The notes under the pieces were generated by a model, which ran no database searches, was not told the DNA's origin, and saw nothing but the letters and a program-made list of their open reading frames with translations. Positions 2,037 to 7,946 of a DNA stretch of 64,000 nt are shown here, in pieces. How positions within the stretch are numbered: the stretch's first letter is position 1; each line of letters begins with the position of its first letter. Source of the stretch: Candidatus Zixiibacteriota bacterium (GTDB taxonomy: Bacteria; Zixibacteria; MSB-5A5; GN15; FEB-12). The position numbers were made by a program, and so were the translations under genes. The stretch lies in NCBI GenBank assembly GCA_019038695.1, contig JAHOYZ010000007.1, positions 1 to 64,000 on the forward strand, in the 5' to 3' direction.

Positions 2037-2810
2037 CTACTTCACCAATCCGCGTTTGGAATCATTGATGAAATCAAGAATCACCTGGATTTCAGGGATG
2101 ATCTCAAGTTCTTCCTTGATGCGATCCACTGCCTGAGTCGTATTCAGTTCACTGAAGAAAAGCAACTTGAAAACCTCACGAAGAGCCTTGACCGTGTCGA
2201 GTTTGAAACCACGACGCTTCAACCCAACAATGTTAAGCCCGGCAATTTTTAGCGGATATCCCGCCGCCATCGCATAAGGACAAACATCCTGTGGTACGCG
2301 AAAACCACCACCGATCATCGCGTGCGCCCCAATCTTGACGAACTGATGTACCGGCAACACCCCCGACAGAATTGCGTAATCGCCAATTTCAATGTGTCCC
2401 GCCAGCGTACAAGCATTGCCCATGATGACGTTATCGCCCAGTGTACAATCGTGGGCCACATGCGCGTAGGCCATAATAAGGCAGTTCTTGCCAATCTGAG
2501 AACGCCGTTTGTCCGTTGTGCCGCGATTGACAGTAGCATATTCGCGGATAGTAGTCCCGTCGCCAATGATTGCCGTTGTCTCCTCGCCGCCAAATTTCAA
2601 ATCCTGAGGAACAGTAGAGACAACAGCACCGTGTGCAATCGTGACATTCTCACCAATCCGGGCACCGCTTGCGATCAAGGCTGAGGATGCAATCTTTGTC
2701 CCCTCCCCAATCTGAACGTTGTCTTCGACAATCGAGTACGGTCCCACTGTCACGGTCTCGGCCAGTTCAGCTTTCGCGGACACTATTGCTGTCGGATGTA
2801 TATTGCTCAT
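2037..2810 (-). CDS. lpxA: Acyl-ACP--UDP-N-acetylglucosamine O-acyltransferase
   Basis: Catalyses the first step of lipid A synthesis, transfer of a 3-hydroxyacyl chain from ACP to UDP-GlcNAc in the cytoplasm. The 257 residues match the family length. The N-terminal two thirds are left-handed beta-helix hexapeptide repeats (such as IGENVT, IGDGTT, IGKNCL). The 'HVAHDCTLG' stretch carries His117 and His120; the latter aligns with the catalytic base His125 of E. coli LpxA. The start ATG overlaps the stop of the upstream lpxC/fabZ by four bases (ATGA), indicating translational coupling. No lpxD or lpxB is present in the window. Confidence 0.95.
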
Positions 2811-4198
2811 CGTTCAACCACCATTGCCATAAAGTCTGCCTCCGCCACTTTGTCGTCATCGACAAAAGCCTCGCCCGACATTTTGCAGATCTTGCGCCGG
2901 AACGAGTTCATGGTCAGCTCAAACCGCAACTGATCCCCCGGCCTGACCGGCTTGCGAAAACGAGCATTGTCGATTCCCATGAAGTAGACCACATGCTTCT
3001 CCGGTTCGGCAATAGCATTGAGCATAAGTACGCCTCCGGCCTGAGCCATCGCCTCGAGAACAAGTACGCCGGGCATAATCGGATGGCCTGGGAAATGCCC
3101 CTGGAAGAACGGTTCATTGATGGTCACGTTCTTTAACGCCGTTACTCTCTCGCCTGGAACCAGATCGAGGATTCGGTCGATCAACAGGAATGGGTAGCGG
3201 TGAGGCATGATTTTCTGAATGGCATCAATATCGAACAGAATGCCAGTGCCTGCCCGACTATATTTGCCTGCAATTTTCTTCTTCTTGTATAGCTCCTGCA
3301 TCTTTCGAGCCAGCGCCACGTTGGCCTTGTGCCCTGAACGTGCCGCCAGCACATGCCCCTTAAATGGAACCCCGATCAGAAATAGATCTCCCAACAGGTC
3401 CAGTGCCTTATGACGGACCGGCTCATTGGGGAAACGAAGGGGAACATCGTTGATGATGCCTGTCTCACCAACAAAGGCTTCATCCTTTAAATCCAGTACC
3501 CGGCGAATTCGATCGACCTCGACCTGGCCAAGATCGGAGTCATAGATGACTACCGCGCTATCGAGTCCACCACCCTTGATCAACCCGGCGTCTTTCAGCG
3601 CCTCTACTTCGGAAAGGAAACAAAACGTTCTCGCCGGAGCGAAGTCATCAACGAACTCCTTCTCAAGATCAACGAGAGTTGTATATTGCGTCCCCAGGGC
3701 GGGATTCTTGTAATCGATCATAAAAGTGATACGCATGTCATCCGAGGGCGCCACGACCAGGTCCACACCGCGTTCCGGTTCGTGGTAGGCCATAGGGGTA
3801 TCGATCTCAAGGTAGACTTTGTCAGCCTGTTGTCTTTCAATTCCTGCTTCGAGCAGCTTCTCCACATACGGCATGGCTGAACCATCGCAAATGGGTGGTT
3901 CGTTGTTGTCCAATTCGACTATCATGTTGTCGAGCTGGAGACCGGCAAACGCCGCCAGTACGTGCTCGACCGTATGAACCCTAGCTTTCCCGTCCTCAAG
4001 TGTCGTGCCACGGGAAATATCTACGACGTGATCGATATCGGCGATCACTGATGGTTGATCGGGAAGATCAACTCGTACAAAACGGATACCGGTGTCGGGC
4101 GCCGCCGGCTTGAAAGTCATCGTACAGGTGTTGCCGGTGTGCAGTCCCACTCCCGCCATTGAGATTTCAGTCTTGATAGTGCGTTGTTTTTGGTACAT
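2807..4198 (-). CDS. lpxC/fabZ: Bifunctional UDP-3-O-acyl-GlcNAc deacetylase / 3-hydroxyacyl-ACP dehydratase (LpxC-FabZ fusion)
   Basis: A 463-residue fusion of the committed lipid A deacetylase LpxC (about 1-315) and the fatty-acid dehydratase FabZ (about 325-463). LpxC zinc ligands are visible as His79 in 'HTVEHVLAA' and His263/Asp267 in 'HKALDLLGD', with His290 as the likely general acid/base. FabZ shows '[12 protein letters not shown]' and the active-site pair His368 ('QGHFPGHP') and Glu382 ('LEAMAQ'). The fusion is known in Bacteroidetes/Chlorobi-type bacteria and couples the two fates of 3-hydroxyacyl-ACP. A well-formed promoter sits 80-107 bases upstream, and lpxA follows with an overlapping stop/start. 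Confidence 0.95.
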
Positions 4199-4425: not shown

Positions 4426-5589
4426 CTACCTTTTCCCCACCGCCTCACGGAAACGCTTCACCTGCTTCTCGTAGAACTCACTGACCGGTTGTTCCAGTAA
4501 AGCAAGTTCAGCCTGAGCCAGAGCTTCTCCCGGACGGCCCAGAGTAAAAGCCAGCTCGGCCAACAGGTCATGGTGCTTGGCCCTGAAAAAACCCGGCTCA
4601 GTCAGAGCAAGCGCTCGACGCACAAAACTCTCCGCTTCGACCAGATTGATGCGTCGCTGGAAACACCACAGTCCAAATGAATAATACTTGCCCGGTTTGG
4701 TCGACCATCCTTCGCCCAGACTCAACTTGCCAAGTCGAATCGCCGATGTCGTATCAGCAGCCAGATACAGAGCGCTGTCAGCCAGAAAGCTACTGTGGGC
4801 ATTAATCGTCTTGACCTCTTTTGAACCTGTGGTCACTTTGAGACCCGCTCGAATGTACTTCTCAATCCGGTCGGTCTTGTTGAGCTTGCGAGCTATGTTA
4901 CCCATGAGCCGCGCAACTTTTTCGATATTCCGATTGTTTCTTACCTTAGCATTAAGGATGACATTAGCTCTTGATATTGCCGAGTCAAAAGGCAACAAAT
5001 CACCCCAGACAGCGTTGGCGCTGCTCTCGAATATCTGCATAGAGTAGTCACGGCCGGACAGTTTTTCGATTTGTTGGTAGTATTGGATGGCGTTCAGAAA
5101 TTCCCCGATACCCTTGGAATAACTGGCAAGAGAAAGACCATCCCGAGTATTAGGATTAGCGTGAAATCGATCTTTACGTTGCTTAACAGTTGTAAGATCG
5201 GTCAAGGCTTGATTGATCGAGGCAATGAATCGCTTGGCTCCGGTGTAGCCGGTCCAACGAAAAATCACATCTCCGTTGGCGTTGGTCAGGACGAACAACG
5301 GGTAGTAGCTGCCGACATTGTATGTCTTCGCCAGTTGCACTCCCTCGCCTTCACGCGCATTTAATGCCAGATGAACAACGCGCGCCAGAGCTGCTTTGAC
5401 TGCTTCTTCCGATTCCGCTTCACGAGCGGCTAGTTCGCAGTATTCTCATTCGTCTCGGAAAAACTCAAGCAGGAGCGGCTTGTCTTGATTTAATGACTGT
5501 TGCTTCGCTTCGTCAAATGTAGCGGACTCCTGTGCCACAATGGGCACAGCCATAAACAGGATTCCTAACAGTAGACAAATCGATTTCAT
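4426..5589 (-). CDS. Secreted thioredoxin-fold/TPR protein with in-frame TGA at the redox cysteine (candidate selenoprotein)
   Basis: Read through the TGA at 5448-5446, this is one 387-residue protein. The ATG at 5589 follows GAGG with 10-base spacing and begins a signal peptide ending near 'VPIVAQES'. A thioredoxin domain follows: 'KPLLLEFFRDE', TGA at codon 48, then 'EYCELAAREA', and on to 'YPLFVLTNANGDV'. The TGA therefore occupies the first position of the catalytic CxxC, giving U48-x-x-C51. A SECIS-like hairpin begins 16 bases after the TGA. The rest (about residues 140-387) is helical and TPR-like. Frame and codon use are continuous on both sides of the TGA. Without selenocysteine insertion only a 47-residue fragment would be made. 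A nonsense mutation or base-call error (TGC or TGT to TGA) is the main alternative. Confidence 0.75.
5415..5429 (-). promoter_or_regulatory. Candidate bacterial SECIS hairpin
   Basis: On the mRNA strand CCGCT, a CGTGA loop and AGCGG form a perfect 5-bp stem with a 5-base loop. Counting the U of UGA as 1, the stem begins at 20 and the loop spans 25-29, with G26 and U27 in the loop. Bacterial SECIS elements lie just downstream of UGA and need a G (and often U) near the start of the apical loop; E. coli fdhF uses G23 and U24. Position and loop both fit. The hairpin is inside coding sequence, as expected for bacteria. Confidence 0.6.
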
Positions 5590-5656: not shown

Positions 5657-7225
5657 CTACCACCATATCTGTTGCCCACCGTCCCATGTAAATATGCGCT
5701 CTTCGTCTCTCGAATCCGATGACACTAACCGATATAACACTCCGGCCGGAGCAGCGAATTCCAACGGACCTTCCCCGGCTATTCCTTCACCGACCGTTTG
5801 CCATCCGTCCTCCCAATAGAACAGCTCGTAGCTCTTGCCCGGTTCGAGCGCCGATATCACGACTCCGGTAGTTGATTTCTCAATTGTGCGACGAGTTTCC
5901 GACACTAGTGCCAACGCAACTTGCTCATCGGGATGGCCAATTAACATCCCCATCGACCCGTCATCTTCTAATACAAACGGCGACCCAGCTGGGACGAGTT
6001 CTTCATTGAGATAAAACATCGGCAAGTACGCCACGCCGGTGCCCATATCGGTAAACAACGCCATCTGATCTTCGACTTTGCCCCAATGAATCGCTCGCCA
6101 GTCGCCGGAATTGAAAACACACAAATAGGCAAACGGCACCGAGTCCGGCACTGGTTCAGAGAATTTGATAACGACATCAGAAACAGTGGTGTAAGAGCTA
6201 GTGACATCCTTATAGCTCTTCCCCCCTAGCCAACGAGGAACTTTCTGCGCACTGTCCTTAACAAACGCGAGATTGCCCGGTTGCTGTCCGAAAGCCTTAC
6301 GGTACGCCTTGCCCACTTTGGCCGAAAGGCTGTACTCACCCGGATCGGCTTCAGCACCCATCAAAGGCAAAACCGAACCGTCCGGCATAATGAGAGCATT
6401 CCATGCATGGTTACCATCGGAGTTGGCCCAATGCGGCGTATAGTCCGAGGTAACTGCCAGACCGTTGGCTCGCATAGCGTAGATGGCCAGATTGGTCATA
6501 TCCTCGCAACGCCCTAGTCCATTGGATAGCATCTCGCGCAGGCCCTGATCGGTCGGATGAAGATAAAACCGTTCGTCGAATCCAAACCAGGTTCTGATAT
6601 CTTTGTTGATAATCGTCGCAGCTTTGGCGGCATCGGATGGATCGGTCATTTGATCGGCGATATTGGCATACTTGGTCATGAACTCTCGCCGCCATGATTC
6701 AAGCGGCTCGCTGGAACCCCTGTACGGCAAAACACCTTCACAGAAAGTTTCAAACGGCAATCCGGTTGCCCACGGCTTGGTGCGCCAGGCTTCGAAAGCC
6801 AGATCGATATTCTCAATCAGATAGTCGGCCGTGATCGCCTTCACGTCCTCAATCACCGTGTCCTTCTCGTAATCAATCTCCCCGCGCGTATCTTCTATCC
6901 GGTAAATATCAGCCATCAATGAATCGTAGTCCGGATAAGCCAGGGGGTCAATCTCCACCGTTTCACCGGCGGTATCGACAAACTTGAAGATCACATACTT
7001 ATGCCCCTCCATGTTACCGATCAGAAAACAGGCCGCCTGATACTTGAGGGTGTCGCCGGACTTGGTATAATGATCCAACACCTTTTGCAATTCGGGTGCG
7101 TTGTCACCAGCGACCTCAAGCACAGCCGCAACATTTTTCGGGATGGTATTCTCAGCCGCCGCATCCATCGGTGACAGAGCGATTATGACAAGAGCGATCA
7201 AACAGACACAAAGAAAATGTCGCAT
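5657..7225 (-). CDS. Secreted transglutaminase-like (papain-fold) protein
   Basis: The frame is open to 7501, but the ATG at 7225 has a strong GGAGGAAAC site and begins a signal peptide (MRHFLCVCLIALVIIAL, cleavage near 'DAAAEN'), giving 522 residues. A transglutaminase-like core is visible: Cys240 in 'LGRCEDMTNLAI', His273 in 'DGNHAWNAL', and an Asp about nine residues later in 'MPDGS'. The N-terminal region (about 25-150) is helical and acidic; the C-terminal 200 residues look beta-rich, like a carbohydrate- or protein-binding module. Such proteins act as proteases, amidases or cross-linkers outside the cytoplasm. The selenoprotein candidate lies 67 bases downstream on the same strand and may share its transcript. 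Substrate unknown. Confidence 0.75.
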   Translation of the reverse strand: MRHFLCVCLIALVIIALSPMDAAAENTIPKNVAAVLEVAGDNAPELQKVLDHYTKSGDTLKYQAACFLIGNMEGHKYVIFKFVDTAGETVEIDPLAYPDYDSLMADIYRIEDTRGEIDYEKDTVIEDVKAITADYLIENIDLAFEAWRTKPWATGLPFETFCEGVLPYRGSSEPLESWRREFMTKYANIADQMTDPSDAAKAATIINKDIRTWFGFDERFYLHPTDQGLREMLSNGLGRCEDMTNLAIYAMRANGLAVTSDYTPHWANSDGNHAWNALIMPDGSVLPLMGAEADPGEYSLSAKVGKAYRKAFGQQPGNLAFVKDSAQKVPRWLGGKSYKDVTSSYTTVSDVVIKFSEPVPDSVPFAYLCVFNSGDWRAIHWGKVEDQMALFTDMGTGVAYLPMFYLNEELVPAGSPFVLEDDGSMGMLIGHPDEQVALALVSETRRTIEKSTTGVVISALEPGKSYELFYWEDGWQTVGEGIAGEGPLEFAAPAGVLYRLVSSDSRDEERIFTWDGGQQIWW

Positions 7226-7350
7226 ACAGTTTCCTCCGGACGGTGTGTGTTCGTTTCTGAACATACAAACTGCGCGGGGAGTTGTACAGTTAGTTGTAGG
7301 TTGGGATTCCGGCGCGAAGGAAGGTGTGTAGGTCGATACTGTCTTCAGTT

Positions 7351-7390
7351 CCTCGCCGGGTGCCATGCTCAAACTTGTTTGGGCATGATT
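7351..7390. repeat. Dispersed intergenic repeat with hairpin
   Basis: The stretch reading GTGCCATGCTCAAACTTG occurs here and again near 54608, both between genes. Here it folds into an imperfect hairpin, CATGCTCAAA against TTTGGGCATG. The surrounding 7226-7481 gap also holds two copies of CTGTCTTCAGTT (about 7339 and 7422), with a third near 40575. No gene is seen in this gap. Confidence 0.5.
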
Positions 7391-7481
7391 CCGTGGGTGG
7401 TAGTTGAGTAAGTCAAAATCTGTCTTCAGTTTCGACAAGGTCATCCCACCTGACGCCTCCGGCTTTATGAGGGGCACCGAG

Positions 7482-7946
7482 TCAATGTCCCGCATCTTCA
7501 TCCAGCCTCTTTCTGCGGCGCTTGCTCAACCGTACCCATATTTCCCATGCTACACAGAGTACAGGAATTATCATACCAATTTTGATTCCGATCAACACTG
7601 AGAAACGGCCAGTCATGGCAACAGCAAAGATGAGGATCATTATCCAACTGCAAAGGATGAACCTCACGCCGGTCCACAATCCGGTATCCATCGCTGCCCT
7701 TCTCAGGAAACTCCTTCTGGCAAGGTGGTCACCTTTCGGTTCCAGATGTTTGCCATCCTCAGGATCAGCATTGAGGGCTTCGAGACGTTTGATCAGGGCA
7801 AAAAGGGTAGCACCCAGTGGTAACGCAACCAGTAATCCGAGGCGGTTCCCAACGGTGGCTAGTGAGTAGAATGCAGCAACAATCGTCAGAATAGAAACGA
7901 CAGGAATTGCTATTTTCAATATCATCAACTTGCGTTTGGTTAACAT
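7482..7946 (-). CDS. Hypothetical membrane protein
   Basis: Not recognised. The ATG at 7946 follows GAGG with 8-base spacing and gives 154 residues; the ORF could extend to 8033, but no better site is seen there. Two hydrophobic helices near the N-terminus (about 9-29 and 36-52) and two near the C-terminus (about 94-115 and 118-137) flank a charged cytoplasmic-looking loop with 'RSFLRRA'. The C-terminus is strongly basic ('SKRRRKR'), which by the positive-inside rule places it in the cytoplasm. No motif links it to the neighbouring transglutaminase. Confidence 0.6.
   Translation of the reverse strand: MLTKRKLMILKIAIPVVSILTIVAAFYSLATVGNRLGLLVALPLGATLFALIKRLEALNADPEDGKHLEPKGDHLARRSFLRRAAMDTGLWTGVRFILCSWIMILIFAVAMTGRFSVLIGIKIGMIIPVLCVAWEIWVRLSKRRRKRLDEDAGH

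Follow-up and report, generated by a model that had tools for sequence, protein, structure and literature searches.

The locus raises the question of whether a TGA codon inside the gene for a putative secreted thioredoxin-like protein is read as selenocysteine (Sec). The window, meaning the whole stretch of DNA that was analysed, comprises 64,000 nucleotides of a Candidatus Zixiibacteriota genome, and the gene lies at 4426-5589 on the minus strand, with an ATG at 5589 and a TAG at 4426. With TGA translated as a residue, the frame from 5589 to 4426 is uninterrupted over 387 codons, and we found a single TGA in it, at codon 48 (5446-5448, minus strand), as the sequence-only reading had claimed. 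A standard gene caller reports only the 304-aa ORF downstream of the TGA; because standard gene calling truncates the gene, an annotation made in this way would lack the active site.

We then assessed the domains of the translated protein. A signal peptide, MKSICLLLGILFMAVPIVAQ (5530-5589, minus strand), is predicted from the sequence; homologs also have a hydrophobic N-terminus, and the AlphaFold model shows low pLDDT at residues 11-20, inside this putative peptide. A thioredoxin-fold domain at about residues 23-130 (5200-5523, minus strand) is indicated by a Pfam Thioredoxin_7 match to residues 23-103 (E 1.9e-9), by invariant columns, by alignment with the structure 2kuc and by the model. 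The active site is UxxC, reading U-E-Y-C at residues 48-51. Its second residue of the pair, C51, is invariant in 30/30 aligned homologs, as is Pro97 among the aligned homologs at the expected cis-Pro position, and in the model Sec48 immediately precedes a helix at residues 49-60. The TGA column pairs with the first Cys of the CGPC in 2kuc; this alignment and the homolog column bear out the earlier placement of the TGA at the first Cys of a CxxC. The remainder of the protein, about residues 131-387 (4429-5199, minus strand), is predicted to form a TPR-type helical solenoid on the basis of TPR models, AlphaFold and Foldseek. TPR_2 was matched by 24 of 30 homologs and TPR_14 by 22 of 30, the mean pLDDT of the whole protein was 92, with most solenoid helix pairs above 90, and Foldseek placed TPR proteins at the top and the thioredoxin-TPR protein YbbN/CnoX lower. 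The Pfam and TPR matches, the modelled solenoid and the N-terminal signal sequence thus support the proposed secreted thioredoxin-TPR architecture.

To follow the TGA across relatives, 30 homologs were read first and then 50, and the family was counted within 132 genomes of the phylum, 45 of which contained homologs. Full-length alignment gave 66% identity in the congener and mostly 36-47% in the others. At the active-site column, 38 of the 50 sequences had TGA, 12 had TGC or TGT, and none had another codon, so the proposed check for Cys at this position returned TGA or Cys in 50/50. These results bear on two alternatives. One is that the gene is dead and cut short by the TGA, or that the TGA is a TGC or TGT misread in sequencing or assembly, for which the short ORF found by the gene caller could be taken as a sign. 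The identical TGA is, however, carried by 38 separately assembled sequences from many families, including the congener, the frame stays intact for about 340 codons downstream of it, and the hairpin described below is conserved only alongside TGA; we give this explanation practically no credence. The other is that UGA is read as a different residue, through reassignment to Trp or Gly or by leaky near-cognate read-through. We found no evidence in its favour. TGA is a normal stop here, ending 10 of the 37 long ORFs in the window and some homologs of the gene itself, the column alternates with Cys only, and a SECIS and a full sel set are present, which makes such a reading highly improbable. We accordingly rejected a pseudogene, a sequencing error and a reassigned code on the basis of the homolog comparison, the hairpin, the Cys alternation and the normal TGA stops.

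A third alternative accepts Sec as real and makes the TGA mainly a selenium-dependent switch: at low selenium, translation would stop at codon 48, and a start at the GTG at 5340 would yield a TPR-only product. The open 304-aa ORF beginning past the TGA fits this proposal, but the conservation of UxxC is better explained by active-site chemistry, and we regard a switch as improbable.

On a maximum-likelihood tree, at least 8 Sec/Cys changes were needed, and well-supported branches made 6 of these unavoidable. The selB gene scored above cut-off in Cys-form genomes such as G009, G033, G065, G019, G021, G047 and G084, indicating that the Sec/Cys exchange is not simply a consequence of machinery loss. 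Five loci (L054, L056, L101, L102 and L104) formed a paralogous branch with 100/100 support; they had the more classical active sites WUGTC, WUGSC, WURWC and WUNTC and a modified hairpin beginning UUCGCU. Contig searches with back-translated active-site patterns returned no relatives; these patterns fix Cys where Sec forms have TGA and would therefore miss most of the family.

We next examined the candidate SECIS element. The sequence-only reading had described a 5-bp hairpin with a CGTGA loop beginning 16 bases past the TGA, and this was found at 5415-5429 (minus strand) as CCGCU-CGUGA-AGCGG, with the stem starting 16 nt and the 5-nt loop 21 nt after the TGA. The published bSECIS model specifies a 3-9 nt loop, a 4-16 bp stem, 16-37 nt spacing, a G[G/U] whose G lies in the first two loop positions, and an MFE of at most -7.5 kcal/mol (PMC13188914). 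The window hairpin conforms to these rules, with a 5-nt loop beginning CG, a 5-bp stem and 21-nt spacing; its MFE of -8.6 is within the energy limit, which several of the 38 Sec sequences miss. Of the likeness to the E. coli fdhF loop that had been suggested, the general rule of G followed by U or G held, while the remaining resemblance was loose. Taken by itself the hairpin is weak evidence, because bSECIS-like stems of at least 5 bp occurred in 472 of 1900 random stretches of the same genes and its folding-energy z-score in single-sequence folding was -0.38, which is not unusual.

Support beyond chance for the candidate hairpin comes from comparing homologous sequences. In the exact register, 38/38 Sec sequences and 1/12 Cys sequences had a stem of at least 4 bp (36/36 and 1/12 among the rows used for the tree test). 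Among 33 distinct Sec sequences, 99.4% of the stem pairs were kept, and slid controls dropped to 25-49%. Double-sided, compensatory changes occurred at two of the five pairs (CG to UA at one; UA to CG and AU at the other), the loop of Sec forms was always C-G-[U/G]-G-N, and RNAalifold recovered the same five pairs unprompted. Codon choice was also constrained in Sec forms: the second Ala codon was GCT in 35/38 (background 0.19), the Arg codon CGT in 34/38 (background 0.13) and the third Ala codon GCG in 29/29 (background 0.25). The binomial P ranged from 1e-7 to 1e-26 per codon, not corrected for relatedness. Unlike these nearly frozen hairpin codons, the Tyr+2 and Ala+19 codons were free. In 5 of 6 independent supported tree pairs the hairpin followed Sec, with none against; on its own, this tree-corrected sign test falls short of significance (P = 0.0625). 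Two Cys forms retained remnants, the 5' half and loop in L029 and the whole hairpin in L109, and these look like relicts. Repeated Sec/Cys exchange, SECIS decay and relict hairpins together offer a natural test of why Sec is retained at a thioredoxin active site.

The window contains no selA, selB, selC or selD, as had been stated, and we therefore searched the rest of the host genome (3.28 Mb, 58 contigs, 96% complete), as had been proposed. The full set was present. The selA gene (C29:11071-12408, 496 bits) adjoins selB (C29:12434-14293, 291 bits, above cut-off), and a tRNA-Sec above the Rfam cut-off, with a TCA anticodon by ARAGORN, lies at C39:3057-3149. The selD gene (L047, G000:C10:49792-50715, 378 bits) has an in-frame TGA at the usual Sec position, in CAGUASK, and is therefore probably a selenoprotein gene itself; SelD proteins that contain Sec within a UxxK motif are already known (PMC13188914). 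Three genomes gave incomplete sets in fragmented assemblies: G060, a UGA-form genome that is 93% complete and has an intact hairpin, had no selA, selB or tRNA-Sec above cut-off, G001 had tRNA-Sec and neither selA nor selB above cut-off, and G078 had selA alone above cut-off. The missing genes are plausibly assembly gaps.

The gene, the UGA/Cys column, the SECIS, the machinery and the fold are thus supported by comparative evidence, and from these we infer selenium incorporation in vivo, location, the direction of redox flow, the electron donor and client binding. We consider it very likely that the product is a thiol-disulfide oxidoreductase that is exported, probably to the periplasm, and has Sec as the nucleophilic first residue of its active site. 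In the mechanism we propose, SelB and Sec-tRNA(UCA) would recode the UGA at the hairpin that immediately follows it. In the mature protein, a TPR solenoid would carry a redox domain resembling Thioredoxin_7 and the C-terminal domain of DsbD. The U48 selenol would attack disulfides of the substrate, or else sulfenic or persulfide groups; the resulting mixed selenenylsulfide would be resolved by C51, and the TPR arm may select the client protein or hold it. DsbD/CcdA-type membrane reductases of the genome would donate the electrons; a CcdA-like protein and a DsbD-like protein with a 652-aa frame are encoded there and could act as donors.

A different function on the same Sec reading is that of a secreted chaperedoxin, a CnoX-like holdase with a redox head in place of a plain disulfide reductase. 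Like the window protein, CnoX/YbbN consists of a thioredoxin domain followed by a TPR domain at the C-terminus, so the domain order matches, and E. coli YbbN/CnoX (3qou) and its Salmonella counterpart (3qdn) were among the Foldseek hits. Its active site is SxxC or CxxC, its thioredoxin subfamily differs from that of the window protein, and we know of no signal peptide in CnoX. The overall TM was low (about 0.2-0.3), with the similarity mostly in the TPR part, and the redox domain is nearest to 2kuc and DsbD. CnoX chaperedoxins are characterised by holdase activity and by passing their clients to GroEL. Moreover, E. coli CnoX acts with cytoplasmic chaperones, namely the GroEL system (PMC8129009), whereas the window protein has a signal peptide by sequence. 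We hold the chaperedoxin function to be a tentative second choice, and the disulfide oxidoreductase remains our preferred reading.

Selenoproteins with a thioredoxin fold and a UxxC motif are a well-known kind, and the window protein fits this class, having Sec at the first active-site Cys. We compared it with individual known systems. The selenocysteine thioredoxin (PF00085) shares the UxxC chemistry but is small and stand-alone, and its match to the window protein was weak (17.7 bits against a cut-off of 23.5). The closest redox domains by sequence, the DsbD C-terminal domain and the putative disulphide-isomerase 2kuc, have Cys in place of Sec and lack a TPR part, and DsbD has a membrane domain; against the 330-bit cut-off of the DsbD model NF001419, the window protein scored 20.8 bits, its best NCBIfam hit, in the thioredoxin part only. 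The Trx7/PDZ (seleno)protein NF041199 likewise combines Thioredoxin_7 with Sec, but it has CxxU, with Sec second, and a PDZ domain where the window protein has UxxC and TPR. No member reached its 300-bit cut-off: the window protein gave no hit at E <= 1, and the best member gave E 1.8e-4. In the PF13098 thiol:disulfide interchange selenoprotein, too, Sec takes the place of the first Cys of CxxC in a thioredoxin fold, and by its description, the basis of this comparison, no TPR tail is noted (PMC13188914). PF13098 itself matched 29 of 30 members at E <= 0.01, and the window protein fell narrowly short of the cut-off.

Among the NCBIfam models (June 2026, including many for selenoproteins), none reached its cut-off for any of the 30 members; the best E-values, around 1e-6 to 1e-4, covered the thioredoxin or the TPR part alone. 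The 2026 prokaryotic selenoprotein inventory has no thioredoxin-TPR entry, nor does the word tetratricopeptide occur in it (PMC13188914). The proposal of a new selenoprotein therefore holds against these two sources. We found no thioredoxin-TPR selenoprotein in the literature searched, and literature beyond it could describe one. The proteins appear to form an uncatalogued family within the known UxxC thioredoxin-fold selenoproteins, with a domain combination new among selenoproteins, an exported redox head on a TPR arm.

The gene neighbourhood was compared over 20 homolog loci and the window; nothing was widely conserved around the gene, and no pathway was indicated. A transglutaminase-like gene was nearby in 4 of the 21 loci. 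In the window it encodes a PF01841 protein (5657-7501, minus strand) and adjoins the selenoprotein gene; its relatives lie near homologs in G001, G088 and G095, not generally. On the other side, inspection of the translations by eye suggests an LpxC-FabZ fusion-like ORF (2807-4198, minus strand) followed by an LpxA-like ORF (2037-2810), and both kinds are also next to the gene in the congener.

A second, shorter thioredoxin-TPR selenoprotein family of about 300 aa, with the motif DFYTDWUxWCK, was observed in 120 of the 132 genomes. The 34 loci read (L132-L161 among them, a few being the same genome fetched twice) comprised 25 TGA and 9 Cys forms, and the family hairpin, GACAC-GGTC-GTGTT, kept 93.6% of its pairs over 22 distinct sequences. 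The two families might together constitute a phylum-wide exported redox system of secreted selenium-based chaperedoxins that hold and repair oxidised envelope proteins, with Sec/Cys exchange repeated in genomes that have kept the Sec machinery, although we think this unlikely. The window's own genome carries a Cys-form member of the second family, L133 (G000:C14:33702-34553), which still keeps the hairpin GACACGGTCGTGTTC, likely a fossil SECIS; its counterpart in the congener, L147, has TGA.
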